Shown piece by piece: positions 4,250 to 59,125 of a stretch of DNA of 64,000 nucleotides. The notes under the pieces were generated by a model. The model searched no databases. It had not been told where the DNA came from and saw only the letters and a program-made list of their open reading frames with translations. Position numbers and translations under genes: made by a program. How positions within the stretch are numbered: the first letter of the stretch is position 1; each line of letters starts with the position of its first letter. Origin of the DNA: Hydnum rufescens UP504 (lineage: Eukaryota > Basidiomycota > Agaricomycetes > Cantharellales > Hydnaceae); NCBI GenBank assembly GCA_014904985.1, contig MU129077.1, positions 1 to 64,000 on the forward strand, read 5' to 3'.

Positions 4250-6860
4250 CCAAAGCAAGTGCCACACACCCGCCGGGGCAGGTGTGTGGCACTGTTAGGT
4301 GAGTTTTCTTTTTACAGGCTGTACCACAACGCCAAAAGAGCAGCACTAGCTGCTCTTTTGGCGTTGCTTGAATTCTTTATTTACTAACGTTCATTATTCT
4401 AGGTTCCTTCCCTCTGCTACCTGAAGAATGCACCGACAAGACTCAGGACGAAATACGAGGGCACGCACAGCCGCCCAGGACCCCAAGACTCAACTATCTG
4501 CGACCTATAGAATGATGCCTGCCACACCCGCTTCGGCGGGTGTGGTAATATTAGGTATTTTTTTTTATTACGGGGTGGATGATGACGCCAAAAGAGCAGC
4601 CCCGCCTGCTCTTTTGGCGTTGCTTCTGTTATTTTTTTTAAACTAACATATTCGTTATTCTAGATTTTCTCCCTCCGCCAAACTCCCCATCCAAAGAACA
4701 CACAGACAAGGCCTGGGCGAAATACAGGGGTGCGTGCAGCCACCCAGGACCCCAACCCTTGCGTATCCCCAACCCCTACAACGACAATCAAGTACGGCAC
4801 TGCACACCCGCTTCGGCGGGTGTGTGGCAATCTTGGGTCAGTTTTTTTAAATTACGGGGTGTATTACGACGCCAAAAGAGCAGCACTAGCTGCTCTTTTG
4901 GCGTTGCTTATGTTATTTTTTTTTTACTGACGTATTACTTAGTCTAGGTTCTTTCTCCCTCTGTTCGAAGAACACACAGACAACATCCACCATGAAATAC
5001 GGGAGCGCACAGCCGCCCAGACCCCAACTTGCAACCTATATGACAACGAAACAAGGACGGCGCCACACACCCGCTTCGGCGGGTGTGTGGCAATATTAGG
5101 TGAGCTTCTTCATTATGGGGTGTACGGCAACGCCAAAAGAGCAGCCCTGGCCCCTCTTTTCGCGTTGCCTTCAAGTTTTTTTTTCTTTACTAACATTTTA
5201 CTATTCTAGGGACCTTCACGCTGCAATATCTGACCCGATGAATGCACCGACCAGACGCAGGGCGAAACGCAGGAGTGCGCAGTTGCCTAGACCCCCGACT
5301 TTTGATTATCCGCAATGCAATCTATACGACTACGCAACAAATACAGTGCCACACACCCGCCGAAGTGGGTGTGTGGCAATATTGGGTGAGCTTTTCATTA
5401 CGGGGTGTACGATGACGCCAAAAGAGCAGCACCAGCTGCTCTTTTGGCGTTGCATATGTTATTTTTTTTTAACTAATGTATTACTTAGTCTAGATTCTTT
5501 CTCCCTGCGTGAAACCGCCCTGAAGAATACACAGACAATGCCCACCCCGAAATACGGGAGCGCGCTGCCACCCAAGACCCAAACCCTCGACCATCCGCAA
5601 GTTATAGAATGACGGATCAAATACGATGCCACACACCCACTGAAGCGGGTGTGTGGCAATATTATGTGAGTTTTTTTTATTACGCGGTTTACGACAATGC
5701 CAAAAGAGCAGCACCTGCTGCTCTTTTGGTGTTGCTTGTATTATTTTTCTACTAACATATTGATTATTCCAGGTTCTTTCTCCCTATGTGAAACCCCACC
5801 CGAAGCCAGCACAGATGAAGGCCAAGGCAAAATACGGACGTACACAGGCACCCGAAAGCCCAGCCCCGAACACCCACGGTGACCACCACGATGAGTTAAA
5901 TACGATACCATATGCTGCTGCGGCAGGTGTATGGTATTAGTAGGCGAGTTTTCCACGTACTACAATGCCAAAAGAGCAGCATCAGCTGCTCTTTTGGCAT
6001 TGCTTGGATTCTTTTTTTATTATTAACATGCATGCTCATTATTCTAGGTCTTTTCTCCCACCACGAAACTTCACCCACCCAAGAATACATAGACAAGGCC
6101 CAGGGCGAAATATGGGCGCACGCACAGCCACCCAAGACGACCCTCAAGCATCTCTACACAACGACGAATTGAATACAGTGCCACACGCCCGCTTTGGCGG
6201 GTGTGTGGCACTATTAGGTGAGTTTGTTTCATCACACGGTGTACCATGACGCCAAAAGAGCAGCACTAGCTGCTCTTTTGGCGTTGCTTCTGTTATTTTT
6301 TTTAAAAACTAACATACTGATTATTCTAGGCTTTCTCCCTCCGCGAAACCTCCATGCGATGAATGCACTGACAAGGCCCGGGCAAACTACGGGCGCCCGC
6401 ACAGCCACGCAAGATTCCAATGCTCGACTATCCACAACCAATACAACGACGAATCGAATATGGTGCCACACACCCGCCAAAGCGGGTGTGTGGCTATATT
6501 AGGTGAGTTTTCCCATTATGGGGTATACCACAATGCCAAAGGAGCAGCACCAGCTGCTCTTTTGGCATTGCCTTGGTTTTTTTTTGCTTTTACTAATGCA
6601 TTTGCTATTCTAGGTACCTTCTCCCACTGTGAAACCCCACCCAAAGCCAGCACAGACGAGGCCCAAGGCGAAATACCGACCTACGTGGCCACCCGAAAGC
6701 CCAGCAACCGCAACGAGAAATTAAATATGATACCACACACCCGCTGAAGCGGGTGTGTGGTACTATTAGGTGAGTTTTTCTTCACGGAGTGTACTACGGC
6801 GCCAAAAGAGCAGCACCAGCTGCTCTTTTGGTGCCATCTGTCTGTCTTTTTTTTAATTAC
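4250..6860 (+). repeat. Right arm of element A: plus-oriented intron-like/exon-like module array
   Basis: Ten modules with a period of about 260-285 bp. Exon-like parts (about 150-190 bp) begin GTTCTTTCTCCCTC, carry ...GAATGCACCGACAAGGCC... and end with a hairpin of the form CCACACACCCGC-TTCG-GCGGGTGTGTGG (starts near 4,260, 4,519, 4,801, 5,062, 5,349, 5,629, 5,908, 6,179, 6,466 and 6,730). Intron-like parts (about 110 nt) start GTGAGTTTTT, hold a second hairpin (GCCAAAAGAGCAGC / GCTGCTCTTTTGGC; near 4,331, 4,590, 4,870, 5,134, 5,416, 5,698, 5,966, 6,249, 6,534 and 6,801), then a T-run, ACTAAC and ATTCTAG. A conserved frame (ECTDKAQGEIRAHAQPP) runs through parts of several exon-like pieces but is usually closed by stops. 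Confidence 0.8.
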
Positions 6861-8310: not shown

Positions 8311-11300
8311 CTACTCTGGCATGTTCCTAAATGAACTATACATCCCATGCTGCATCATATCTCGATAGAGTATAGACCAGTCAACTTCACTTTTCACCCC
8401 AGGTACAGAGTTGGATGGTCCAGGGAGACCAAAGACAGAGTTTGATTGGTGAGGGATGAAGTTGGATGGTCCAGCCAGTCCAGCAAGACCAACGGAAGGA
8501 TCAGAAATTGGTTGGCAAGGGACAAAGTTGGATTGTCCAGCGAGACCAAAGAGAGGATCACTGTTTGATTGGCCAGGGACAAAGTTGGATTGTCCAGCGA
8601 GACAAAAGAGAGGATCACTGTTTGATTGGCCAGGGACAAAGTTGGATTGTCCAGTGAGACCAAAGAGAGGATCACTGTTTGATTGGCCAGGGACAAAGTT
8701 GGATTGTCCAGCAAGACCAAAGAGAGTGTCACTGTTTGACTGGCCAGGGACAAAGTTGGATTGCCCAGTGAGACTGAAGAGAGGATCACTGCTTGATTGG
8801 CCAGGGACAAAGTTGGATGGTCCAGCGAGACCAACAGAATGATCAGAATTTGGTTGGCCAGGTATGAAGTCAGATGGTCCAGCAAGACAGAAGAGAGGAT
8901 TAGACTTTCCGAATGTGTGGCCAGAAGTTGGGACACTCACTCCTTGGAGAGCATTCAGACCTAATTCCCCATAGTTCTGGGGGCCATCCAGATGTTGACG
9001 CAGAATTGGGTGGGTAATCATCAATTCGGTTGGCTTATTGGGAGCATCCAACCCAAGGGAATCATTGTCCATCTCATCTCCTGAGGTGATCACCTCAGTG
9101 GACTTTGGCTGTGCTTTCTTGCCCTTTCGGCACTTTGAATTGGGCGGATTAGTACTGCTCAATCCTTCAGACTTGGCACTCTGGGTGAAGCGCCTGTGGG
9201 AGTCCTTTGATAAGTGTCGAACATTTGAAGGTCCAGCAGTATTCAATGAGGAGTGTTCAATGGCAATATCACAAACATGGTGGACAACTGTACCAGTCTG
9301 GTCAATGATTAAGGCAATATCATCATCATCATCTTCATCTTCCGAATTCCAAGACTTGACCTTGATGGAACAGTCTTTGCCTTTGTGGAATTCACTAATG
9401 AGATATCTCCACTCTCCACCTTCCCATGTTTTGTGGCCTCATCAAGGGTGGGGGCAGGGAACTCTGCTTCCAGTGGCCAACCAACAATGTGCACATGATG
9501 CTGGGCCAACATGAATAGTAGGCATGTCCAAGGAACAGTATTTGGAAACCATGCATGGTCAACAAAAAGGTTCCTAATATATTTCGAGGTGGCAGAGTAG
9601 GCAGCATCATGGGACTTGAGTTCCTTTGCTTTCTCTGCCTTCTCGGTCTCTTCATGCCACTTCAATAGACCACGTCCATTGAGGCATTGATGCAAGACCT
9701 TGACAAAGAGGTCATTGAGACACTTATCCAGGTTGAATTTGCCATTTGCAATCTTTTCGATTTCAGGAGATCCACAGATTACAGCATTTTGGGCATGTGC
9801 CGCATGAGCACCTGCTTGTCCTGCAACAACAAATAGTATTGTATGGACATCAAATTTGGCCATGTGCACCATTTCAGCCTTCATTGCCTTCTTCTTTTGT
9901 GCCATGAACTTGGCAACTTTGGACCCCTGGGTCAGCTTGATGTCATTATCCACCCTTGCGATTTGAGCCAAGATATGTAGGTCCTCAAGCCATGACTCAA
10001 GACCCTCGGGATCACCATCAAAAGCTTCCTTCTCTTTAAGGTATGCATCCTTCAATTCGCTGGAAGGCACTATAGACAGATGCTTATTAGGATGTGTTCC
10101 TACTGACTCAAAGAACAAAAGGAGTACTCACAAGCTGGAAGACCCTCCTTTTTCCACTTCCGTGCATACCCATTGAAAGGATTTGAGGCACACTTGGCTT
10201 TCAGAGTTGAAGTGAGATTGGCAAGGTGCTCCACCTGATGCAATGGGTGATTATGTTTTTCAGCAAGTTTGGCCAGAGCATCAGTGAAGGCCTGTGTTAA
10301 GCCTTTCACTTCATTTGCAAGCTCAATGGGCAAAGGCCCTGTCATATATGACTTCCCCTGGGTCTTGGCACCAGGGCTCATAGCGGTATTATCCTGATGC
10401 ACATCCTCATCTGTGTTTTCATCATCATCAAGTTCTGATGAATTGCCATCATTACCAGATCCATCATCATTGGAGAAGTGGACTGTTTTAGCTTGGCGAT
10501 GGGCTGCTTTTGAGGGTAATGGATGAGGGCGCCATACAGGAGAGGAACGAGGGTGTGATGTGGGTGATGCAGTGCTACGATGTTTCAAGGATGGACTACA
10601 CTCATGGAATAGCAGAGCTTTCTCATGATTGGGACTGTAAGTGAAGGTTGCATGTCAGTAAATAACCTTGAGAAGATAAAAAGGACAGACGTACTATACA
10701 CATCGGCAGAGGGCTTTAATGAGCTTCAACAGCTTGACCTCAAACTGAACTAAGTTCAGGTTATGGTGTTCAGCAAAGAAGTTCAATCCTTCCACAATGC
10801 CAAGGGGGCCACAAGAACCACACCGCATCTCTTGAACAAGACGCAACACACCCATGCCTTGGAAAACATGATTGAGCGTGCGATCAACATATTCAACATC
10901 TTCACTGGGATCCACACCACCATCTGGTAAGACAATACAATGGCACTGACAGAGTTGGCATCCCAAATGTGGAGAAGATCTCCTGGGCAGGCCTCAGGAA
11001 TGCTTTTTGGGAGTCGGAGTGCTAACACCCGGGCTTCTTTGAGGAGTTCAGCTGGCATGTATTTCTGGACTTCCTCCAAAAGCTGACTGGGAGTGTCAGA
11101 CAGATATGAAGGGGAAAGAGGACCATCATCAGATGACAGATTGATGTTCAAAGCAGGGAGAGGGGTTCAGCACAATGGGCAGTCTTTTCAGGTGACTAAT
11201 GTGAGGATGGGGTGGGTGATTCAGCATGATGCACAGTCTTTGCAGGCGATGAATGTGAGTCTGTAACAGGCCGTGAGACTTGTCATTCAGTCATTTCCAC

Positions 11301-12424: not shown

Positions 12425-14880
12425 AAAGAAACTACTTAGTAGCACCACACACCCACAGGCAGGTGTGTGGTACTGTCCATAGAAATCAAAAAAAAAAACC
12501 AAAAAGAACTACTCTGCGGGGGTGTGTACTGGTCCGCAGAAATAAAAATAAAAATAAAATAAAAAAGAACTATTTAGTAGCACACCCGCTACAGCAGGTG
12601 TGGTACCGGGGGCGTGGCTTGGCGGTTCACCTTTGGGCGGGTCATCTCGTTCGCGGTTTTGTTCCCGGATTTCGTTTGGGGCGTGGGTTGCTGTTCTCGT
12701 GTATTTGTTCGGCGGCATCGCGGGTCTTCATCGAGGGTTCAAAAGAATAGCTATGATAATAAGTAATAAGTTAGTAAAAAAAGAAAAACCCCGCAAAAGG
12801 AGCAGCACATGCTGCTCCTTTTGCGCGGTCGTACTTATATACAGGGAATACTAACCTTGAAAATTATCACACCTGCCGAAGCGGGTGTGGGGTTCATCCG
12901 GGACTTCTGTGGCCTCATTGTGTGTGGGTTTCGTTTATACGTTGAGGGAAATCGAGGGTTGGGGGTATGGGTGGCTGCGTGGTCCCATGTTTTGCCCTGG
13001 GCCTGATCTGTGCATTCGTCGGGTCGGATATCACGCAGTAAATGTACCTAGAATAATGATATGTTAGTAAAGAAAAAAAAACGAAGGCAACGCCAAAAGA
13101 GCAGCCGGGGCTGCTCTTTTGGTGTCGCAGTACAGCACATAATCAAAAAAAACTCACCTACTAGTACCACACACCCACTTCGGCGGGTGTATGGTACGCG
13201 ATTTCATTGATCATTGTTTTGGGGGGCGGGCACTAGTGGCTTGGGTGGCTGCGCATTGAATGTCGCACTGGGGGCTCGTCCATGTCTTTGTCGGCTTGTT
13301 GGGTGGGTTTTCACAGAGGGAATGTACCTAGAAGAACGAATGATAATACATTAGTAAAACAAAAAAGAAAGCAGAGGTGCCAAAAGAGCAGCTTCTGCTG
13401 CTCCTTTGGCACTGGTGGGATTAGACATACCTGATGTCACCACACACCCGCTGAAGCGGGTGTGTGGCATATCTGATTTGTCATCGGATTATAGTTCTTG
13501 AGGCTCGGGGGTTGGGGTCTGATTGGCTGCGCACTCCGTATTTCACTGTAGGCCTTCTCTGGCCATTCGTCAGATGGGGTTTCGCGGAGAGAGAGAGGAG
13601 CTAGAGTAAGGAGTACGTTAGTAAAAAAAAAAAAGAATTCAAGCAACGCCAAAAGAGCAGCTGTTGCTGCTCTTTTGGCATTGTCATACACCCCGCAATA
13701 AAAAAGACTCACCTAATATTGCCACACACCCGCTGAAGCAGGTGTGTGGTGCCGTATTTGTTTTGTAAGGTGTGGATAATCAAGAGTCGGGGGTCTAGGT
13801 GGCTGTGCGCTGCCGTGTTTTGCCCTGGGCCTGATCTGTGCATTCGTCGGGTCGGGTATTGCACAGTGGAGGTACCTAGAATAACAATGCATTAGTAAAC
13901 AAAAAAAAAATCCAAGACAACGCCAAAAGAGCAGCCGGGGCTGCTCTTTTGGCATCGTGGTACACTGCGTAGTGAGAAAACTCACATGATATTGCCACAC
14001 ACCCGCCGAAGCGGGTGTGTGGCACCGTATTTGAGGCGTCGTCGTGTATTTTGCAGATAGTCGAGGGTGTTCGGGTCTTGGGTGGCTGCGCGCTCCCATA
14101 TTTCGCGGTGGGTGTTGTCTGTGCATTGTTCGGGTTGGGTTTCGCAGAGGGAGAAAGCCTAGAACAATGAATACGTTAGTTAAAATAAAATAACAGAAGC
14201 AACGCCAAAAGAGCAGCTGGGGCTGCTCTTTTGGCGTCATGGTACACCCCGTAACGAACAAAAAACACACCTGATATTGCCACACACCCGCTTCGGCGGG
14301 TGTGTGGCGCCGTATTTGTTTCGTCCTCATATACGTCATGGAAAATCGAGGGTTGGGGGTATGGGTGGCTGCACGGTCCTGTGTCTCGTCCTGGACCCGG
14401 CCTGTGCATTGATTGGGTCGGATATCGCGCAGTGAATGTACCTAGGATAAGAATATGTTAGTAAAGGAAAAAAAAGCGAAGGCAATGCCAAAAAAGCAGC
14501 CGGGGCTGCTCTTTTGGCATTGTCGTACACCCCATAATGAAGAAAAACACACCTAATATTGCCACACACCTGCTTCGGCGGGTGTGTGGCACTGTATTTG
14601 TTTCGTCGTATGTTGCGGATATACGACCGTTGGGGTCTTGAGTGGCTGCGCCCACCACTGTATTTCGCCCAGGGTCCCATCGGTGCATTCTTCGGGCAGG
14701 GTTTCACGGAGTGAGAAGGGACCTAGAATAATGCAGATGTTAGTAAAAAATAATTCAAGCAATGCCAAAAGAGCAGCTAGTGCTGCTCTTTTGGCGTCGC
14801 GGTACACCCATAAAAAGAAAACTCACCTAATAGTGCCACACACCCACCTCAGCGGGTGTGTGGCACCATTGTGCTTGCTT
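12425..14880 (-). repeat. Left arm of element B: minus-oriented module array
   Basis: Ten exon-terminal hairpins lie near 14,834, 14,561, 14,279, 13,995, 13,722, 13,441, 13,166, 12,870, 12,583 and 12,443. Intron-like hairpins lie near 14,762, 14,485, 14,201, 13,921, 13,646, 13,379, 13,091 and 12,787. On the minus strand the intron-like pieces run GTGAGT - hairpin - ACTAAC - TTCTAG (for example about 14,827 down to 14,723). Exon-like parts keep ...CCGCGAAACCC..., as in element A. The modules decay outward: the last two near 12.44 and 12.58 kb have lost the intronic hairpin. Confidence 0.78.
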
Positions 14881-24188: not shown

Positions 24189-26379
24189 GTGCACAAATTA
24201 TTCAAGCTTATGCTTCCTCAGTATTCACTACCAAACTGACATCAGCTTTCGGGACCATTACTTAATGAGGAACATGAAACAACACAGCAGTCACTTTACA
24301 AGTTTCAGAAAGGCCATTTTGCCACTGGCCAATGTGACGGGTGGAAAGACATTTCCAAAAACCACCTTATCGCATTCCTGGTGACTGCCGCCAACTGAGT
24401 AAGCCCTTTGTTCATTGGTCCATGTCATTTGGTAATCTATCCACTTAGATCCGTGTAACACATGTTCAAGATGTATCTGCAGAGGCAAAGACTGCCGATA
24501 ATTTGTTGCAACTTATTCTAAATGAAAAGGATTATATTGAGGGTATGCTGGGAATGAAACTCATAGGATGGGTCTCAGATGCTGGGGGAGACTCACGAGC
24601 TGCCTGTCTCTGTCTACATGGGCTATTTCCAAATCTTCTCATTGCTGACTGCTATGCTCACCAGGTATGTATTTTATGGGATGCCAATCAGCTTTCATTC
24701 ATTGCTTTCTCTAGATGCAGTTGCTACTTGCTGATTATATCAAAAATAACCCTGTATCATCTGTGCTTATTGACGAAGCCCTTGATATTGTCACCTGGTT
24801 CAATAACCATTCTTGGGCTCTCCATCTACTTTACATGGAGCAGCACTTTTGAGGAATTCACTAAGCATGTACTCACACTTCTCAAACTGGTGATTACACA
24901 TTGGTGTTCACATTCCCATGCAGTTGGCCGTCTTGTCAAACTTGAGACACCCCTTCATACCACTGCTATTAAGCGAAGGGAGGAGCTTCATACAGCTGCC
25001 GGAAAGAAGCTGGAACAGACCCACAAGGCAGATATAATCATAGCCACCATCTTGCAAACAAGTTTCTGGGATGGCATTAAACTGTACATCATTAATCTGC
25101 CTGTGGCCTGTGGCCAGACACCCAATCTATTCTAATGCAGTTTGATAATTAGTGTCTTATCCCATATTGAACCCTTGGCAATTGCTGTCAATGTTTGCCA
25201 GGGTGCCTCGACCCAAGCCAACCAAGTCTCCCTTATATTCGCAAAATTATTTCATCATTACACTGCCATGCTCCAATCCAATTCTATCCAACACACACCT
25301 GTCCGAGCAATCATTGAAAGCATTCGCAAGTGCTGGGCGAAGGTGGACCATGAGCCTTTCATCTTGGCCGTCACCCTGAATCCGTTTCTGAGATGTCATT
25401 TATTTCTACCATCACTATCAATCATGGCTCTTTGCACCATGGTCAAGCAGCTTTATGCTTGCATGTTTGAGCTGGAACTGCCCACTGGCCTTTCTTCTCG
25501 GTTCTATGAATATGTCAACTCATCTGGAGAGGTATTTGGAAATGGGGACTGGGAAGAGAAGTCGCTGATGGAGATATCACCAGTACAAGTGCCATTGATA
25601 TGCCAATATTTTGTTATACTTACTCACCCTCAATATCTTGACAGTCTCGTGATCTAATATGGAAGGCTGCATCTCAGAACGAGCCCCTCGTGAAACTTGC
25701 ATTGCTTCTCCTTTCATTTGTCTGCAATTCAGCTGGGACCAAGCGATTCTTCAGTATCATGGGCTCAGTAAAAACAAAATCACGCAGTAGACTTAGCATA
25801 AGCAAGTTGGAGAAGGTGTCGACAGTAAAACTTGGCATTCGCAGTCAGCAAGCCACAGAGGGTACAGCATGGAAGCGACTCAAGCATGAGTTTGGTCTCA
25901 CTTCTTCAACCAAGGATAATGATCCTACAGGGGCACAAATGATGGATGAGGAGGAAGCATCTGGCACCATTCATGAAGAAAGGGGGAGTGGAGAGCATCA
26001 CAGCACCTTGTATGGGACCTTGCACAGCCACCTCCTTCAAGATCTCAACAAAGCTGAATGTGAAATTCTTGAATGGATGCTGTCTATGACAATTGCCACA
26101 CCACCTCAAGTATGTCTATGTCCATGTGTCCTCATCATCACAATTACTAATTGTTTGAAGGTGTGAGTAGCAGAGAAAAAGGACTGGCCACTCACTGATA
26201 TTTTTGACTTTTCTTTGGATCATGCTGTATGGAACGAGTTTTGGTTCACAAGTGTAGCAAATGCAGGAGCAGAAACAGAACAACTAGATCTCCTGACTTG
26301 GGCCAAAAATGCCGAGCTCAGCCAGGATATGTTAGGCAAGAGCCTCACTCAGACTGCAGGGTGGGCAAACAGTAGTTAG
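24189..26379 (+). pseudogene. hAT-family transposase, decayed
   Basis: hAT transposases move DNA elements and carry an RNase H-like core with a C-terminal dimerisation domain. Motifs in order: LPQYSLPN-stop-HQLSGPLL, CDGWKDISKNHL, IGWVSDAGGDSRAA, DCYAHQ followed by an intron at 24,665-24,714 (GTATGT to CTCTAG), then LADYIKNNPVSSVLIDEALD, VGRLVKLETPL, the C-terminal LLLLSFVCNSAGTKRFFSIM (hAT dimerisation motif) and a last exon with IFDFSLDHAVWNEFWF ending at 26,379. In-frame stops (for example after YSLPN and near 24,396) and a frame change near 24,850 mean it is not functional as it stands. Terminal repeats and target duplications were not found. Confidence 0.8.
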
Positions 26380-28399: not shown

Positions 28400-30690
28400 T
28401 AGAGCCCTCATAGATTGTGAATATTAATGTACTTGAATTCTTATCCTTTAATGTGTATAGCCTTGTGTTGAACTCCATCATGTTAAGTCTTTGAGGTTGA
28501 GGCCATTGACACTGGTTGATGTCAATTTTGATGTCAAAACCATCCATCTGAGGTCAAAATTCAGTTTTTGATGATCATTTGACATCAATCCCAATTTAAG
28601 CCTCTCAGGCCCTGACAACATGTCAAAATGGTGCTCCTTTTGAGCTAAGGCTATATGGCTGACCAGCCTGGCCTAGTTCTGGTCTTCACATAATGATATC
28701 ACACATACAGAGCCCTCAGTGCATGCCCAGTCACCCAAAGAAGGGAAGTATTGCACATGGAGCAGGGAGATTCAGACTTCTTCACATTCACATGAACCAT
28801 GAAACACCTGCCTAGCCCCACAGCCTGAGAAGTGTAGCCATGAGAGGCAGCACCAATATTGCTTGACACAAGGCTTACAGTTGGAATACAGGGAGTTGTG
28901 TGTGTGTGTGACTCACTTGGTAAGCAGATATCTTTACAGTATTAGGCTAACCCTCCCCCTTGCACCTTTAGATGATAGTCTGGCCCTTTGGCCAGCTACT
29001 ACCATCTCACTCCCATTCCCTTTCCCCCTCCCTCCACTTCTCCCACATACAAGGTGAAGCCAGTGCTTAGAGCAGGAGGATTTCTTCTCCAATTTTGTTT
29101 ATAGGAAAGTCAACTCCACCTCATCTAATCATGACACCTGTGTATATTTGGGGTCAAATAGTGTGTTACTACAGTCTCAGAGTTTACTTCTTTAGTGCCA
29201 GCTGGCTGCTGCCAAGCTGAGTGCACAGAGACCTTACAAGGTCTAGTTGACCAGGGAACACCTTCACACAGCTTCACAAAAGCTCTGCCTGGCTTGTAGT
29301 GGTAAGGGGGAAAGAGTTGTTCTTTTTGGTGGAGTTGTAATTACAAGTTTTTATATGGTGACCTGGAAATCCAAGTGACACCTGGTTTTAGAATCTATTT
29401 TTAAGAAGGTTCTAGACTGGCCTAGACTTGCCTATTATGGAAGGCTCCACAGAGTCCAAAGCCTACCCAGATTTCCAATGGAACACATACAGACAGTCCT
29501 ATATGACCCAGATGCTATTGGTGTCTTGGATGACTCATGGCCTTTTAGTCACTGTTGGCAATCTGGGCTAAGTCAGGTGCATACCTGCCAAAGCCACAGC
29601 AAGGGACTTAAGGTCCAAAGAGTAAGGAAATGGGTTTTTGTAGGCTTGATTTCCACCATTCTACAACACACTCCATGTCATGGTGTCAAGTATGTTACCC
29701 TCATGGGAAAACAACAAAACCCTGAGCCCCTTCAATTTTTTTTTTTCCTTTCTTCTCTTGATCTCTTACCCCCATGTCATAACTTGCACACCTATGCACA
29801 TGCCAGACATTTATTTAGTGTATGATTTTCTTTTAACCACTCCAGCACAAGTTCCTTGAGCAATTGTGGATCACTGTAGGGAAGGGTGTAAGGGAGAGTA
29901 GCATACAGGATTATATAATCCCATGTAAGTAGAGTAACTACACAGGTGGAAGAAAACATCATCTTTTCCTCTGTCTATGAAGGCCATTTGGGTCCATTTG
30001 TAGCCTGGCTGAGAAGCCTAAAAGAATATACTAGTACACCACTCACAATCAGCCCATCAGAGATAGGGATTGACACCAATGACATTAGAAATATCACTTG
30101 ATTTGATAAATGCATTGTGCACATGATGCCTACAATGGTGTATGGTGATCAATGATCCCTGCAAGTCTCTCTGCAGCATCATGTGAGTCTAGTCTTTTCA
30201 AATCCCCATATTCCACCAAATTACTCTTGATCTGAGCCTGGATTAAGCCAGTGGTATGCTCTGTTTGAGGTGCATTAGGTGAATTTACATTCCTCCCACA
30301 TCGAATCCAAAGGATGACCACTAGGTTAACAAATGAAAATTAGCAATCTCCTCTGAAGTTCAGATTAGTCTGAACCCTGACAACAAATAAACACCAGATA
30401 TTGAATATTGGGGTGTGATGGGAGAGGCAGGTGATGCTAGAATGACTGTTCTAGGCATCCTGGAGGTGGGAAATCAATGAAAACTTAAACTGACCACCAG
30501 TTTGAGGAAGGGCATGCAGGCCTTGACCCCCTGAATGTTTGAGTGCCTAATGAAACTTAGATGAGAGGAGGACAAGGTTCAGAATGCAGATTGACCATAT
30601 TTACCAGATATAATCAAGTCACTGGGCATGAGACTGCTACTGTACAGAATCATTTGGCTTTCACACATCAGATGTGACTTACATTTTCCT
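28400..30690. other. Intergenic, no recognisable gene
   Basis: AT-balanced unique-looking DNA with only short frames. A TGATGTCAAAA-rich low-complexity patch lies at about 28,500-28,640. I see no RNA gene or transposon domain. Confidence 0.5.
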
Positions 30691-33600
30691 GTGGTAAATC
30701 CAATTATACAGAGTGCAGTTAGAACATAAAAGATGATTCCATTGTATAGATCAATGAACTTACAAGCTATATTGCAAACATCAATACAATGTGTAGGACC
30801 ATACCCTGAATAGTAAGAGATGTGAACTTACATGCTATGTGGTAGATGATGCCCAGAAGAAATTGGCCAGAGGTCATGAATACAAGAGTGGGAGGGGTGA
30901 ACTGACTTCCTATGGGAGTAAACCACCAAGTAGGACATTAGTAAGTACTGGCTCATTGAATTTGAAGCCATCTGGACTTACAGGCTGCATTATCAATGGC
31001 ATCAAACAAGGAAATCAGAAAGGGAAGATGCATTGAACTCCAAGATGTTTGGACTTACTTTCTGCATTGTGAATGCAATCAAAAGATCAATTAGTGAAGA
31101 TGATGCATCAAATTCCAAGAGATGTGGACTTCCAATCTATGTTGTCAGTGCCACCAAAAGAGGAATCAGCCAGGGGCAATGCACTGCATGCAGAGACATC
31201 TGCACTTACAGCCTATGTTATCAATGCCACCAAAAGAATGAATTAGCAAGAGACAATCCATTGAATTCTAAGACATCCAGACTTACATGCTATGTTGAGA
31301 ATTCCACCAAAACATGAATCAGGAACAAACTATTGAGTTCTAAGACATCCAGACTTACACCCTATGTTTCCAATGCCACCAAAAGATGAATCAGCAAGGG
31401 ACAATCCATCAAGTCTGAGACATCCAGACTTACATGCTATGTCAATACCACCAAAACATACATAAGCAAGGGACAATCCATTGAATTCTAAGACATCCAG
31501 ACTTACAAACTATGTTATCAATGCCACCAAAAGATGAATTAGCAAGTGACAATCCATTGGATTCTCAGACATCCAGACTTACAACCTATATTGTCAATAC
31601 CACCAAAGATGAATTAGCCAGGGATAATCCATTGGATTCTGAGACATCCAGACTTACAGCCTATGTTGTTCATGCCATCAAAATATGAATCAGCAAGGGG
31701 CAATTCATTGGATTCTAGGACATCAAGACTCACAGCCTATGTTGTCAATGCCAACAAAAGATGGGTCAGCAAGGAAAAATCCATTGAATTCTAAGGCATC
31801 CAGACTCACATGCTATGTTGTCAAGATGAATCAGCAAAGGACAATACATTGAATCCTGAGACATCAGACTTACACGCTATGTTGTCAATGCCACCAAAAA
31901 ATTCATCAGCAAGGGACAATCCAGTGGATTCTAATGCATCCAGACTTACATACTGTGTTGACAATGCCACCAAAAGATGAATCAGCAAGGGACAATCCAT
32001 TGAATCCTGAGATATCCAGACTTGCACCCTATGTTGTCAATACCACCAAAGATGAATTAGCAAGGGACAAGCCATTGAATTCTAAGATGACTCACAGCCT
32101 ATGTTGTCAATGCCACCAAAAGATGAATTGGCAAGGGGAAATATATTGAATTCTAAGACCTCCAGACTTACATACTGTGTTGTCAATGCCAACAAAAGAT
32201 GAATCAGCAAGTAATAATCCATTGAATTCTGAGACATCCAGACTTACAGCCTATATTATCCATGCCACCAAAAGATGAATCAGGATGGGACAATCCATTG
32301 AATTCTGAGACCTCCAGACTTACAGCCTATGTTGTCAATTCCACCAAAAGATGAATCAGCAAGGGACAATCCATTGGGGTCTAAAACCTCCAGACTCTCA
32401 CATCCTATGATATTAATGTTACCAAAAGATGAATCAACAAGGGACAATTCATTGAATCCTAAGACATCCAGACTTACATGCTATGTTGTGAATGCCACCA
32501 AAAGATGGGTCAGCAAGGGTCATTCAATTGAATCCCAAAACATCTGGACTTGCATACTATGTTGTGAATGCCACCAAAAGATAGATCAGCAAGTGACAAT
32601 CCATTGAATTCTAAGACATCCAGACTTACATGCTATGTTGTCAATACCACCAACAGATGAATCAACAAGTGACAATCCATTGAATTCTAAGACATTGAGA
32701 CTTACAGCCTATGTTGTCAATGCCACCAAAAAATGAATCAGCAAGGGACAATTCAGTGAACTCTGAGACATCCAGACTTACATACTATGTTGTCAATGCC
32801 ACCAAAGATCAATCAGCAAGGGGCAATCCTTTGAATTCTGAGACATCTGGGCTTACAAACTATGTTGTCAATGCCACCAAAAGATAAATCAGCAGATAAC
32901 AATGCATTGAATTCTGAGACATCCAGGCTTACAAACTACATTGTCAATGCCACCAAGAGATGAATCAGCAAGGGGCAATTCATTGAATTCTAATACATCC
33001 AGCCTCACAGCCTATGTCATCCATACCACCAAAAGATGAATCAGCAAGGGAGAATTTCTTGAACTCCAAGACATCCAGACTTACAACCTGTGGTCAATGC
33101 CACCAAAGATGGATCAGCAAGGGGCAATCCATTGAATTTTGAGACATCCAGACTTACACACTATGTTGTCAATAGCACCAAAAGATGGGTCAGCAAGGGA
33201 TAATTAACTGAATTCTAAGACATCCAGATTCACATTCTATGTTATTAATGCCACCAAATGATAAATCAGCAAGTGATAATCCATTGAGTTCTGAGACATC
33301 CAGCCTCACATTCTGTTATTAATGCCACCAAAAGATGAATCAGCAAGAGACCATCTATTGAATTCTCAGACATCCAGACTTACAAGCTATGTTGTCAATG
33401 TGACCAAAAGATCAATCATCAAGGGATGATGTGTCAAATTCCAAGACATTCAGACTTACTTCCTACATTATCAATGCCACCCAAAGATATATTAACTGGT
33501 AATCATTCTTCAACTGGGTGATATGCACTTACATCCTACAGTGTTCAGGTTGACCAACCAATCTATCAATGCAGCAGCTGACATCAAATTCTAAGAGATT

Positions 33601-35990
33601 GCTCTTACCATCTATGTTATCAACACCATCAAATGATAAATCAGCCAGTAGTGATATATGGAATTCAAGTATCCAGATGCACCCTCTTGTTTGCAGAAGC
33701 CACCAAAAGCTGAATCAGGCAGAACCCATGCATCAATCAACATGAGATCTGGACTTACATACTATGGTGTCAAGCCCATCAAATATATCAACTGAGGGCC
33801 ACCCACTTAATGATGGGAGACACAAACTCACCACCTTCCATTGTCCATGCCAGCAAAATCAATCAGTCAGTGACCTCACATTGAATTGTAACAGATCTCA
33901 GCATACAGTCTACATTTGTAATCCACCAGGAAATGTATCAGCCAACACCTATTATCAAGTGGTGGGGGATGTCACTCACTTCCTACATTGTTGATGCAAC
34001 CAGATGATGAATCAGCCAGCAATCCTGCATTAAATTGTGAGAGCTCATGGGCTCACCAGCTACATTGTTGATACCATTGGCAATATCAGCAAGTCATCTC
34101 ACACTGAGTCAAAAGGGAGCCAGGCTCACCCACTAGATTTTCAAGTTCATCCATGATGTATCAGCCAGTTATTGTGCATCAAAGTGGCAGAGTTCAGAAC
34201 TCACATGCTGTATGATTAATGTTATCAAAGAATATATTGGCCAGTGACTGGACAGTCAATTAGAAGAGATCTTAACTTACATGCTACATTGTCAATAGGA
34301 CCAAGGAATGTATCAGAAAGTCACCACACATTAAATTGTGAGAGATCCAGCCTTACTTCCTACATTGTCCATGTCAGAGATCAGTCTGCATTTGTGGATT
34401 GCATTAGATGAGAACCAGACTTACATCCTACATTGTCAATGTCACCAAAAGATACATTAGCCAACAATAATGGATTCAATACTATGAATTTCAGACCTAC
34501 ATTCTATGTTGCCAGTGCCACCAATGGATGTATCAGCCCAGCAACCTCCCAGAGATGGTGGGAAACATGTACTTACTTCCTATATCATCAATCCCACCCA
34601 GCAAGGTATCAGCCAGCACTCACACATCAAACTGGGAGCTATCCAGACTTACATCCTACATTTTTGATGGCATTGAAAAATGTGTCAGCTAGTGACTAAT
34701 GATAGCAGAAGACATCACTCACCTCCTATGTGGCACATGTCACCAGAAGATGGATCAGCCAGTGATCAGGCACAAAATTTAGAGGCAGCCCACATTCTAT
34801 ATTGTTAATGTCATCCAGTGATAGTGCATCAAGGTGGAGGAGATCCAGACTTACATGCTATATTATCAGTTTTATCCAACAATGTATGAGCCAGTGACCA
34901 TACATCAAGTTGGAAGATATCCAAACTTACAGGCTGTGATGTCATGCCAAATGATGTATCAATGAGGGGATCATGCATCAGATTATGAGAGATCTGAACT
35001 TACTCTCTACATTGTCCATGACAGAGAAAGAGATATCAGCCTGCCAAAGCACATCTAATTGCATGAGATTCAGGCTTACTTTCTACATTGTCCATGCCAT
35101 TGGATGATGGATCAACTAGTCACCATGTGGTAACTTGTAGGGAATCCCTACTTACATACTACATTATCCATGTCACCAAATGATGTATTGGCACAATCAT
35201 CATGAAAGCAGGGAGATATGGACTGACCTCCTATTTTATCCATCCCACATAATGGTGTATCAACCATGAATCATGTATTAAACCCCCACTTACATACTAC
35301 AGTGTGAATGCCAACAAAAGATGTGTCAGTCAGGGACCATCCATTAAATTCCAAGACATCTGGACATACAAGCTATGTTTTTTATGCCATGGGAAAGATG
35401 TATGAGGCACCCATAACACATTGAATGCTCAGGAAAGCCAACCCACATGCTGTATTCATGCCACCAAATGTTCTATTGGCTAGTGACCACATATCAAACT
35501 GTGATAGGTGCAGTCTTACCTCCTACATTGGTAATGTCACCAAGGGATATATCAGCAGGTGATCATGTGAATCTGAAGGTGGGAGATCCATCCTCACACA
35601 CTGTGTTTCCATGCCACCAAAAGATATACATCCAGTGACCTTGCATAAACTAGGAGACATAAACTCACCCCCTGTGTTGTGGATTCCACCAGAAGCTGTA
35701 TCAGGGAATGACCATGCATGGAATTGTAGGAGATCTGGACTCACATACTGTGTTCCCAATGGCAGCAAAATATTGTATCAGCCAGTGACCATGTATTCAA
35801 ACTGTCAGAGATCTAGACTGACCAACTACATTGGCAGTGTCACAAAGAGAATGTAAGTGTGCACCAAATGCAAACATCCATAGCCATACCTCCTATGTTG
35901 TCAATATCATCCAATGAATGCATCATATTGTCAGAACCAGTTGCCACCATTCCAGCCAATGATATAATCAGTATGTTAAATGTTGTGGGA
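30690..35990 (-). repeat. Tandem array of ~76 bp units, each with full intron signals
   Basis: About 65-70 head-to-tail units. On the minus strand a unit starts GTAAGTCTGGATGTCT, has GAATTCAATGGATTGTCCC, then TTGCTGATTCATCTTTTGG (branch-like CTGAT) and ends GTGGCATTGACAACATAG, followed by three variable bases before the next GTAAGT. The middle (31.2-33.4 kb) is the most uniform; both edges decay gradually (from 33.5 to 36 kb units read GTAAGT...CTAATGTA...GACAATGTAG). The array lies about 90 bp past the stop of the GTPase gene and in the same orientation. The peptide read through it (SFGGIDNIACK...) has frequent stops, so simple coding is unlikely. Confidence 0.9.
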
Positions 35991-36086
35991 TACATTCACT
36001 CACCATAAGAATCCGGAAACCCTTATCTGCATGTAACTCTGATTCTTCATCTTGCACAGGCTGTGGGGTTCTCACCACAATGTTCC

Positions 36087-53845: not shown

Positions 53846-56386
53846 TTAGACATCCACAACATCTCCCTTGAAGGGCTCCTTCTTCTCTTGAAACCTCTGG
53901 TCCTCTTCTTCGTCGTCGGCAATGACTATGGTCGGCACTGGTCCCTTGAACCAATGTACACCACCGTATTTGGGAAAGAAATACCAAACCACCGAGCCTA
54001 ACAACACCCCGCCTATTAGCACTACCGCTGTGTATAACAAGATGTTAAAAGAAGGCACGCATCATGCGCACAATCGGTGCACGCACAATAATTCATATTT
54101 GATGCAGTGGTCTGGGCAGTAGTAGGGAATAGGAACGCCACGCTGATGAATGACATGAACGAGACAGCAATAATCGCCACAGGAAGGCCCTAGGAAACAT
54201 TGTCAGGCTAAATTAATCGTATGGTTATGAGAATCCTAATTACCCATCGTCCGACGTGGAATGGGCCGGATTGGAAATTGTTGGTGGATCTAAACGCGAA
54301 GCGAGCAACGATTGGAATCGAGTACTGTGTGCAAATTCAGATAATTATCTAAAAGAAGAAATTATGGGTACGTACGGCATCGTACATCCCCACCACGGGA
54401 ACCTATCGAAGGAGGGGCGCGTCAGTGGCGCCCGTGATATCGCAGTAGAGGATAAGGAGAGAAACTCACAGAGAAGATAGCACCGATGGCAGCTGGACCT
54501 GTGAAAGCCAATAATCCCAACAGGGGTGCACATGTCGCTGTAAGCTACACGGCTACACAGACATGTTGATAAGGCAAACTCAGAAGATCAGAAAGAACCT
54601 AACTGTCCACAGGTGCACCGGTGTATGAGTTCATCCGATATAAGTTTTTTTCGTGAAAAGGGAAGCGCGCCATCCCGTGGGAATGCGAACGATTGGCGAG
54701 ATGCTGCAAGAAGCTAGTAAAAAATGAATGGCCGCGGGCATGAATCAAAACGCGTAAGCAAACACAAGCTGCGAGAGATTCCCGCACAATATTGCTCCCC
54801 ATCAGGTATTGCGCAATTACAACGAAGGCCCACAGTGCGATAGTTACCCTCTGACCCAGAGAGTTAAAGAGGATCACAGCCCTCGGTTGCCCGATTGGAT
54901 CATTCACGATGGCATTTATATTTGTGCCCATGAAGAACGATAGGATGACCAAGATAAAGGTGCCTAATATACCACTGATACCGACGGCTCCAACGATTGC
55001 CCATGGGACAGCGATTGCGGCGTTCGTTCTGTGCAATTCCGAACCCATATAAGAACAAAAGGCTCAAGTAAACGGGAAAATGGGGGCATACGCTTCCTCA
55101 CTAATGTGTACACTCGAATCGAAGCCACCTATATCCACACATGACACAATAGTTCAACTCAAGTGCCATTCGTCGAGAACCCATTAGCGGAAAAAACACA
55201 CCGATGGTCCACACCGGTGATAAGAACGAAAGGATGAAAGGATATCCATTGGGCCAACCATTCACTGTTATAAGAGTTCAGCTTTGCACTAGTTGAACGA
55301 AAATGAAAGCCCACAGTTCGTGAAATTGCCCAGTGCATATGAGGCACTATTGTGGAACTCCTTTGGTGTCGCTACAGGGATGGCAATAATCACGGCCAGA
55401 CAAAGTCTTAATAGCGGTCTCATGTCAGGTATGGATGATCTAAGTAAAGGGAACTAGCACATCACGGACGTGGCGTTAAGCACAACATAAACATTCTGTG
55501 GTCTGGCCAAAGCCGTTGTCCCTACACTAGAATCGATGTCGGCTACCGTCGGGGTGCGCTACCTGGCACAGAACAGTTATTACACACCTGCAAATCACAG
55601 CGTGCGAAAACACGACAGCAACATACACAGCACTTTTTCGCCAGTGAAGTCAGATTGGAGACAGAAACAAAACTACACAGAAGACCCACAAAGTTTGTCC
55701 GTTCGTAGGAATAAACGATTGACCGCGTGACCCTATAGTCGCGGCAGCCATAATTTGTCGTGCTGCACCCCAATCGGCCGAAGCGACTCCGGATATGGAT
55801 CCAATAGTATTCGCATCTAAACATTAGTGAGGATTAGGCCATTAATTCCATGGAATAGAGTGGGGAATGAAAACGCACATCCGACAACCCACGCAAGTAC
55901 ATTCTTGTATCGCGGAGAAGAAAGTGTATGCGTCCAAAAATAGAGCCGTAGGCGAGAAGGTCGACACGTATGAGAGGAAGGAGGGGGGAAAGAACATACC
56001 CCGCCTGATGTTGGTGCTGCACTTGCGAGCTCGGCCATGCTGATGCCAATGCACAATATGAATAATGAGGCTACGAACCAACCCCAAACCATAGCACTGG
56101 GGCCTCCATTCCTGGGGCCACGCCAGAGAAATAAAAGGAATACTAAGGTAGAAAGGGGTGATAGAGCTCACGGCATGGCATATATCAAGACGGAGGCAAT
56201 CGAAGGGAACACCCCGATGATCGAAAAAGCGATCCCAAACAGCTCAAAGGTGGAGAAGGCGCGCTTAAATTCTTGCTTGTAGCCAAGTTTTGCGAGAATC
56301 TCTTCGCCTGGGGACAAGAAAGCGACTTTTTTCCGGCCAAGGCGCTTGGGACCATCGTTTCCTGTTAATCCTGTCGCACCAGACAT
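53846..56386 (-). pseudogene. APC-family GABA/amino-acid permease copy 4 (stop and frameshift)
   Basis: It starts MSGATGLTGNDGPKRLGRKK and ends with an acidic tail (IADDEEEDQRFQEKKEPF) at 53,846. Most exon blocks are open (NGGPSAMVWGWFVASLF, GTNINAIVNDPIGQPRAV). Two lesions: extra bases after ALPFSR (about 54,650) shift the frame where other copies read YLYRMNSY, and the following exon has TAG where others read VW. DEE near residue 28 is GEE. It is therefore probably inactive. It forms the mirror arm of copy 3. Confidence 0.78.
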
Positions 56387-57129: not shown

Positions 57130-59125
57130 TCGCGACAACGTTCGAACTCGTAGAGCTCTGCTTCCACCATTGGACATACGGCCCAATCTTCTTCCTCATC
57201 ACGATCAGTCTGCTGCCCCAGGTATTCAATATTCCCTCGCTCCAGGTGAACAAGGGGATGGCGCTGGGTCGCGGTCTCTCCTCAATGCCCACTGAACGCC
57301 GTTTGCCAGAGGTGTCTCAAATTAATGGTGATGAAATGTCTCATACCCCAGGAGACCTTAAATATTGAAACGAGATCGCTGTGCACCAATTCATCGATCA
57401 TATGCTCTCCAACTCCATCGGCGACGGAACCCTGAAGAAGTCCTGTGAAACGGAGGACACTAGGGAGCTTCTGGAGCAATATTGCTCTCAGTCAGGCCAA
57501 GAGACCACTTGGTACCAGCCATTCGCAGACTTGGCAAAGCATTTCTGAAACTATCGAAAGCCGTCGGGCTGACATTCTATCACAATGATCCAACGCTGAT
57601 TCAAGGCTCACTTGCAGAGCGCAAACCGGACATCGTTCTCGTTTCCACGAACGGTGCTCAGCTCGATTATGGCACGGAACTTCCTAGAGACTCCCAAGTA
57701 AGCTTTTTTGGAACGACGACGTATTAAATTCAAAAGCCGCAGCAAGCGGGCAGCGGGTGGCCTGCCTTCTGCGCACCCACAAGCTCAAAAACCTGGTGGA
57801 ACTGTGGAGTGCCTCCTACGCCCTTAAAATACTGTCCCACGGGCGGTATCGTAGCTACGTCATAAACACAAGGCTGTGCCTGTGGTTCTACGATCGAGTG
57901 GGAATTATCAAGTCCTCGGCCCCTTGTATTACCGACTTGGCTCTCTTCGGCGGAGCAATGTCTGTGATGACCTCTCTCCCTCCTTGTAGATGGGGCTTCC
58001 ATCATTTTGTCCCGTCGGCTTTACGCCAGTCAGCGCGCTGCCCGCCGGTCCTTCCCACTCAGAACGTCAAATGAATACACCTACCCCACCTCCCGTCCTC
58101 AACCACGACTCTAACACAGTGAGCTGTCACCTCTCCCGAACCTTTCACCCGAACTTCCATTATATTCCACAATGGGGTGACCGTGACTCTGAACGAAGTT
58201 GTCTACCGGCAGCACACCTGACGAGACGGGCGAGGTTAAGGATGGCTCCGACCTGATTGGGAAAGACGGTATGGTCAAGATCCTTGGCCTTCGCAATGGA
58301 GGCAAAGTGAAGTTGATTTCTTAGAGGCAGCCCGTGGGTATGCCTTGAAGCGAAATGACGAGCATATAATGGGCTACATTCCACAAGTGCTCCTTCATCA
58401 AGACTTTTATTCCGCGGCTGATGGCCCACGTGGAAAATGCGCTTTTGAGAATGACGATTATCGGGTCCTGCACGTCACTCATCGTGCACAGTTGTTTCCC
58501 GACGAGCAAACCACACACATCGTCGGAGGTGACTCAGGTGATGATTGGCGTGGTCAAATGCAAGGGTTTTTATCTGATCATGGCCTTCCATGTAGCCATT
58601 CACACTTTCCCTTAGGTTACCATGCTCTTCACGATGGTCCCAGAATCCTTCACCGGGATATCAGCATGAATAATACCATGTTCTCCCGTGGGAAGGACAA
58701 TTGAGTGGTTGGTATCCTTATCGATTTCGATATGGCGGTATTCGTCATGTTTGATCTCTGGGGTATACGCCTCCATCTCGATCATCGGTTTGGCACAGGC
58801 ACCATTGCCGTTCATGGCTATCGACCTCCTGGATGAGAGAGACAAGATACATTGGGTACGACATGTCCTTGAATTGTTCCTCTGAGTGATTGTATGGTAC
58901 ACTGCGCGTTGCCATGAAGGAATCGAAACAACCACGGCCTTCCAGATTCGGCTGAAATCTTCCATCCCGTGGCTCGCTAAAGAGAAGTTGCATCTATTGA
59001 ACATGCCTGACGTATACCCACCAAACACAACATTTCGACAGACTCGTGGGCCGGGTAAATCCTCCTTTGCTATGTTCCATGATGGTCTATTCAGTCGCGC
59101 ACGTATGGATCGGGAGGCAAAGTGA
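57130..59125 (+). pseudogene. FunK1-type fungal protein kinase, decayed
   Basis: FunK1 kinases are a large family in mushrooms, related to aminoglycoside-phosphotransferase-like kinases. Blocks in order: KSCETEDTRELLEQYC (about 57,443), TLIQGSLAERKPDIVLVSTN, SHGRYRSYVINTRLCLWFYD (57,837), GYIPQVLLHQDF, the catalytic loop LHRDISMNNTMFSRGKDN (about 58,650-58,703), ILIDFDMAV, then PFMAIDLLDERDKIHWVRH and IVWYTARCHEG. A stop directly after GKDN, a stop after the ELFL segment and several frame changes show it is a pseudogene, although some joins may be introns. It lies between DUF7918/permease pairs two and three. Confidence 0.75.

Follow-up and report, generated by a model that had tools for sequence, protein, structure and literature searches.

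The closest described systems are summarized here from excerpts of the cited papers. In the micro-exon genes (MEGs) of Schistosoma, much of the coding sequence is distributed over many tiny symmetric exons that can be skipped without harm to the reading frame (PMC4015677). The APC11 gene of Arabidopsis contains a 1-nucleotide (nt) exon for which the introns are proposed to be removed one after another (PMC4674806), and a tiny exon of the 1-3 nt class in the Fusarium gene CYP621A is handled by the spliceosome (PMC12940212). The hnwd genes of Podospora form a non-self recognition family with extremely polymorphic repeats that undergo concerted evolution and control recognition (PMC2873952). Introns have been gained in Cryptococcus via duplication of an intron-bearing DNA repeat (PMC2395259), and fungal introner-like elements are multiplied, invasive intron families gained in separate genes (PMC4457414). 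The present case concerns ~76-bp units repeated in tandem behind a P-loop GTPase coding region, on the minus strand of a 64,000-nt stretch of the genome of the hedgehog mushroom Hydnum rufescens UP504, a basidiomycete of the order Cantharellales (assembly GCA_014904985.1, contig MU129077.1, positions 1 to 64,000), referred to below as the window.

Array structure and splice signals

The array very probably forms the inside of a gene and is not a satellite next to one. Its sequence is best explained as a P-loop GTPase gene with a tail encoded by 38-90 consecutive single-codon exons, separated by ~73-nt introns that stem from one 76-bp unit. The tandem repeat is detected by Tandem Repeats Finder (TRF) and occupies positions 36003-30689 of the minus strand. 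An earlier note on this DNA had described the strand, the period, a GTAAGT donor, CTGAT, TAG and an exact slot of three bases before the next donor, and all of these are present. The range it gave, 30690..35990, agrees with the minus-strand parse except at the start, which lies slightly beyond it at 36003. The parse was obtained by dynamic programming, with splice signals learned from strict junctions and a bias towards 3-nt exons. It divides the array into 70 exons, of which 69 are exactly 3 nt long, and 71 introns, in line with the ~65-70 units with three-base slots that had been noted.

On the minus strand between 36010 and 30690, 55 of 60 GT[AG]AG donors sit exactly 3 nt after the nearest YAG. 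The same spacing is found for 5 of 170 donors in a control of 30 kb plus 26 kb elsewhere in the window, taken on both strands, and for 0 of 5 donors on the array's own plus strand. The full pattern YAG-NNN-GTRAG occurs 55 times in the array, compared with a mean of 0.27 and a maximum of 2 when its two-base blocks were shuffled 200 times, which rules out a chance origin of the slots.

The signals themselves are conserved where the units have diverged. In the divergent 5' block, 204 full-length units show the strongest intron conservation, beyond the imposed GT and AG, at G5, T57, A44 and T42; the latter two are part of CTGAT, the putative branch site, and fall in columns without weight in the parser. 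The refuting outcome named in the earlier note, signals kept no better than the remaining unit, was looked for and not observed: the donor base G5, together with T and A within CTGAT, ranks among the best-kept positions. C is nearly absent at the final exon position (2 of 1112 slots), which would be expected if a C directly before a donor hinders splicing. In eight genes compared over 27 index-aligned units, the introns have undergone at least 54 length changes and the slots 0, where 2.2 would be expected by length, a difference that is weak when taken alone. The next-to-last intron of the GTPase part (36218-36163) resembles an array unit, with 4 of 500 shuffles scoring as well; over 17 loci the z-score of this comparison runs from 1.2 to 4.8 and is 2.6-2.7 in the window. 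This likeness is suggestive of an origin of the array unit from that intron and amounts to no proof.

The array is entered from an ordinary coding region. The GTPase part (37301-36004, minus strand) comprises eight ordinary exons at 37301-37146, 37081-37052, 36993-36824, 36766-36690, 36625-36425, 36372-36219, 36162-36140 and 36086-36004, the last of which ends in ...FRILM. When joined, these exons give a stop-free translation that reaches the array border in phase 0 and is 100% identical over all 298 residues to the H. rufescens UP504 public protein labeled P0002, including the AKG|NIV junction. This junction has a weak donor, yet by eye 21 of 21 aligned loci retain a YAG acceptor there. A separate gene starting from an ATG before FRILM was considered and rejected: that ATG is, by eye, absent in 6 of the 21 aligned loci, the window included, and among 15 public models retrieved, 9 (P0002-P0009 and P0011) run through the AKG|NIV junction.

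The translation contains the motifs GPANSGKT, DSGG and TKLD, which we take to be G1 (GxxxxGKT), G3 (DxGG) and G4 (TKLD). The structure model of this part has a mean predicted local distance difference test (pLDDT) score of 79, and its best Foldseek matches are G proteins, (bacterial) dynamin-like proteins, GIMAP2, Era and septins, all in loose alignments with query TM-scores of 0.26-0.43. From the model, the GTPase fold is clear and the subfamily is not. A Pfam scan of the GTPase part returns 17 matches, all below the cut-offs; NACHT and NB-ARC are absent from these 17, and nSTAND appears weakly (E 0.086). The N-terminus, MWKPVRKLFK, looks basic by eye and unlike a signal peptide.

Downstream of FRILM, the first array intron (36003-35893) begins with the donor GTGAGT at 36003 and leads to the first single-codon exon, GAG. 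It is followed by the 5' block (35892-33460), in which 34 single-codon exons are read as ELYGCEHLYEYKRPHNEDENDEHHWLETVYRMDE, many of them kept in order among paralogs. The variable block (33459-31134) adds 30 single-codon exons, of the form NNT in the window (LNNCVAFFYAHYHDAAYAGYRHAAVFHGHA), and then an ATT exon at 31136-31134, which may instead be part of the 3' block. This exon precedes a mutated donor, GGAAGT, and the parser calls a 7-nt exon there; two other donors of the array read GCAAGT. In the 3' block (31061-30764) the slots read K P E H L, one codon per exon, to which sequences such as VESMDL, VKPEDL and VQPEDL correspond in paralogs. The array is closed by a 6-nt exon, GAAAAT (30688-30683; GATGAT, GATAAT and others in paralogs), which was recognized from an alignment of 25 loci and the window, among the rows listed, and which the parse of the window itself overran. 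The stretch at 30682-30321 would hold one or more introns, and possibly a small exon, with boundaries and phase tentative in a comparison of frames by eye. It is followed by an ordinary C-terminal exon, VILWIRCGRN...LAGIIDHHTPL-stop (30320-30130), which has a YAG directly before it at 30323-30321 and is recognized from its genome copies; gaps in the alignment of these copies are mostly multiples of 3, as judged by eye.

In typical genes the joined slots would thus read FRILM-ELYGCENDYEYKASDNLDHENAEHDELENVYGRDE, a variable run, VESMDL, VKPEDL or a similar sequence, the 6-nt exon and the C-terminal exon. In frame with the GTPase, the slot peptide passes from FRILM to ELYG-EN-YEY..., a variable middle of a few to about 50 codons, mostly NNT, and VESMDL-like residues.

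Variable and conserved codon slots

The earlier note had all slots varying between constant signals. This is true of the middle of the array and not of its ends, where paralogs share many of the first ~34 and the last 5-6 codons in the same order. Over 327 full-length middle-block units from 17 arrays, mean within-array diversity is 0.62 at the first slot position (p1), 0.64 at the second (p2) and 0.11 at the third (p3), against a median of 0.10 and a maximum column of 0.27 in the intron, so that p1 and p2 are by far the most diverse of the 76 columns. In the most homogeneous arrays (L013, L018, L025 and L035), intron diversity falls to 0.016-0.041 and slot p1-p2 diversity is 0.49-0.73. Between genes the middle introns are 82% identical, and within genes 86%.

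For 86 unit pairs in which both flanking introns are at least 98% identical, agreement is 33% at p1, 45% at p2 and 100% at p3; for 1343 pairs with 95-98% identical introns it is 33%, 35% and 92%, and for random pairs 35%, 29% and 86%. Agreement between near-identical units is therefore at the random level for p1 and somewhat above it for p2. Near-random p1 and p2 next to introns that differ by 1-4% imply a very high local rate of change, and one explanation is a targeted mutation process that acts, besides selection, on the two bases following each TAG. Such a process would also accommodate the near-absence of A at p1 of the middle block (3%), where the 5' block has A commonly. The third position speaks for selection on the residue. 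T occupies p3 in 92% of the middle block, and departures from it are found in 21 of 204 slots in twofold boxes, all 21 of them residue-changing, compared with 7 of 220 in fourfold boxes, all silent (P=0.005, a rough value, as 7 of the 21 changes are TGG and the slots are related). This enrichment where the residue changes favours selection on residues over a blind mutator, and strong mixing of units by conversion together with balancing selection could equally remove the linkage. A targeted mutator is rated as unlikely.

Slot conservation in the 5' block is bimodal, with some slots frozen and others variable. Eight of the 11 first slots have identities of at least 0.9 at p1 and p2 over 22-23 genes, where the introns reach 0.79-0.84, and in eight close genes 15 of 27 slots hold a single residue across all genes. 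Conserved slots (12 of 34) are more frequent than conserved intron dinucleotide columns (311 of 2031; P=0.003) in an alignment that was built from peptides. Codon blocks common to different genes do not exceed chance, the longest run being 4 compared with 4-6 in 20 shuffles.

The gene family and its public models

The array noted in the window is one member of a family, so the phenomenon is larger than first noted. The exon preceding the array has 47 matches in the genome with at most 3 mismatches. The C-terminal exon has 50 (E<=0.001, down to 47% identity), and 41 pairs of these end exons lie on one strand at a median distance of 6436 bases. The pattern of two consecutive 3-nt exons between three GTAAGT donors occurs at 902 places genome-wide and its reverse at 0. 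All of the 100 places listed among the 902 fall in array runs, one of which lacks detected end exons.

Loci were sampled as 20 stretches, then 7, then 2, and 25 arrays were parsed in total. In the 23 arrays with a recognized FRILM exon, 1445 of 1503 exons are 3 nt long, and 43 of the 58 exceptions belong to L015 and L018. Assembly noise was considered as a source of the odd slots in these two loci, where neither the lengths of the introns nor the numbers of homopolymers are clearly abnormal. A parser with nearly no length preference returns 3 nt for 1423 of 1515 exons. Two genes fetched later as a test yield 56 of 56 and 75 of 77 exons of 3 nt with the preference and 53 of 55 and 73 of 76 without it, and both open with ELYGHE..YEYKGP. 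As predicted from DNA, the genes of the family have the structure of a micro-exon gene, with a portion of the coding sequence built from many symmetric micro-exons.

Two public models, P0008 and P0011, include residues from the array region and offer a lead on splicing. The latter reads FKILM-D-YVSVDSI, and YVSVDSI begins at a TAT slot right after YAG in L035. The lone D fits the GAT slot that precedes this TAT; the model may stem from transcripts or from a gene predictor.

Several observations stand beside the family. On contig C252, the arrays L026 and L027 lie side by side in both orientations with many 2-nt slots, as in a scrambled or inverted copy. On contig C2, a 3-nt-exon array near 726.1-728.3 kb has no detected FRILM or C-terminal exon. 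The public proteins P0007, P0011, P0014, P0018 and P0028 carry acidic coding minisatellites (PDEQV / SDEEV) near the N-terminus, a second variable repeat of the GTPase family. Elsewhere in the window, two tandem arrays with units of about 284 bp (4540-6831 and 13601-14867) look related by eye, and an open reading frame (ORF) at 8311-9438 on the minus strand contains a coding 57-bp (19-residue) repeat with no match in Pfam. Broken ORFs at 24449-26166 resemble the remains of a hAT-type transposase by eye, with no Pfam match in the two pieces scanned. The stretches 54599-55063 and 58240-58704 weakly resemble an amino acid permease and a fungal protein kinase, with matches that stay below the cut-off. 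Rfam and tRNA scans gave no match.

Proposed mechanism, alternatives and known systems

We infer both the splicing and the function of the array from its sequence. The reading that best accommodates the data, and to which a high probability is given, is a translated hypervariable tail that was multiplied as intron-plus-codon repeats and that selection diversified, perhaps for recognition. In fungi, introns are short and are recognized as introns. By such intron definition, the spliceosome would remove the array introns one by one, since simultaneous binding on both sides of a 3-nt exon is hardly feasible. The slot-joined product would then be translated. Unequal exchange and gene conversion between units would add, remove and homogenize whole intron-plus-codon cassettes, an exchange that keeps the frame because every exon is 3 nt long, and selection would diversify the residues encoded by the middle block. 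Since each exon is one codon, exon skipping would likewise yield in-frame length variants instead of broken proteins. The GTPase with its hypervariable tail may finally act in recognition, for instance of fungal self and non-self or of a parasite. This is the least certain step of the proposal, a guess prompted by the way in which homogenized introns with freely varying codons recall the hnwd genes. A bolder form of the proposal, held tentatively and at somewhat less than even probability, is a codon-by-codon diversity generator in which recombination in introns inserts, deletes and swaps single residues in frame, serial or skipped splicing adds further variants, and ~forty GTPases come to carry unrelated recognition tails.

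A number of points weigh against a translated and selected tail. The splicing and translation of the slot-joined product are predictions from DNA, and the recognition role is based on analogy only. The public model P0002 ends in FRILM-VSEL and so breaks off at the start of the array, and a search for the tail among public proteins found 89 word-sharing candidates and none at E<=10, in a comparison for which only proteins of similar length can qualify. The join of the array to the C-terminal exon, judged by eye, is tentative in its phase. The absence of TAA, TAG and TGA from 1112 slots in 17 genes, where ~35 would be expected with independent positions, favours a translated tail, with the caveats that these genes were selected as clean and that the expectation ignores their kinship. 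Agreement at p2 exceeds the random level where introns are at least 98% identical (45% vs 29%), and conserved slots are enriched to a modest degree relative to intron dinucleotides. As a class, slots score 0.67-0.77 and introns 0.79 in intron-aligned units from 60 of 190 gene pairs, and in the eight close genes slot p1 scores 0.86 and the intron 0.91; purifying selection on the slots as a class is thus unsupported. Many slots of L015, L018 and L026 differ from 3 nt, the arrays of L011 and L019 end out of phase, and the parsed joined frame contains stops in L013, L015, L018 and the window. Some family members look damaged. L026 has lost two bases near its end and is probably broken, and the stop in the window results from the mutated donor GGAAGT after the ATT exon, the frame remaining open if that exon is taken as 3 nt or skipped.

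Part of this evidence would also suit an intron-unit satellite that lies within the gene and is removed or ignored, its slots being untranslated spacers. The unit is detected as a tandem repeat by TRF, public gene models mostly ignore the array, slots are broken in some arrays, the C2 array near 726 kb lacks detected end exons, and the slots, taken as a class, show no better conservation than the introns. A satellite of this kind nevertheless leaves unexplained why hypervariability is restricted to p1-p2 with p3 biased to nonsynonymous change, why slot length is fixed while intron length varies, why certain codons are frozen in order, and why the GTPase frame continues into the array. It is accordingly rated as distinctly improbable. 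Of the two options offered by the earlier note, an intron chain that leaves a variable peptide is therefore favoured over a disguised satellite: codon order is partly conserved among paralogs, the frame is open from the GTPase into the array, 50 of 50 C-terminal exons are free of inner stops, and p1-p2 hypervariability and the bias at p3 point the same way. Invasion of an older coding sequence by introners (copy-and-paste introns) at every codon, leaving old codons between young introns, is very improbable, because although middle introns are far more alike than codons, codon blocks are not duplicated (a run of 4 vs 4-6) and introner-like elements are known in fungi from the excerpts consulted (PMC4457414), it needs insertion exactly every 3 nt, dozens of times per gene and nearly always after T in the middle block (92%), and the units of the 5' block fit the same unit profile.

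If the array is spliced as predicted, each transcript would need ~70 accurate splicing events for ~70 codons, a severe test of exon definition and splicing order. The translated tail would represent a new route of protein evolution, with introns as the recombination substrate and single codons as the cargo. A protein would be varied codon by codon, the role of exon-intron structure in protein variation would become directly testable, and one genome would offer dozens of natural replicas for such tests. A further suggestion is that standard annotation can overlook an entire translated region.

Precedents exist for tiny exons, symmetric micro-exon genes, introners and repeat-driven intron gain. 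The structure predicted here comprises runs of dozens of single-codon exons, occurs in dozens of genes and has a hypervariable codon in every repeat of the middle block. No description of such a structure, and no report of consecutive single-codon exons, was found among the matches listed in the PubMed Central (PMC) literature, which most subscription journals lie outside of, and neither 'Hydnum rufescens UP504' nor the phrase 'single-codon exons' occurs in the PMC literature searched.

The comparison with the systems named at the outset, again limited to the cited excerpts, places the array among them as follows. In Cryptococcus two introns were gained in one gene, whereas here there are dozens per gene in dozens of genes. 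Introner-like elements are found in separate genes, and the copies described here are, among the matches listed, in tandem within one gene family. APC11 and CYP621A each contain one isolated tiny exon, compared with dozens in an array. The MEGs of Schistosoma share with these genes many very small symmetric exons, here predicted from DNA. They differ in that nearly all of 38-90 consecutive array exons consist of one codon, and in that their introns are tandem copies resembling one another, with the variation located in the codon DNA; no kinship of sequence is claimed. The hnwd genes carry a WD repeat on a STAND protein, whereas the repeat here is nearly all intron with one codon and is attached to a P-loop GTPase, and the two have in common homogenized repeats with hypervariable codon positions.

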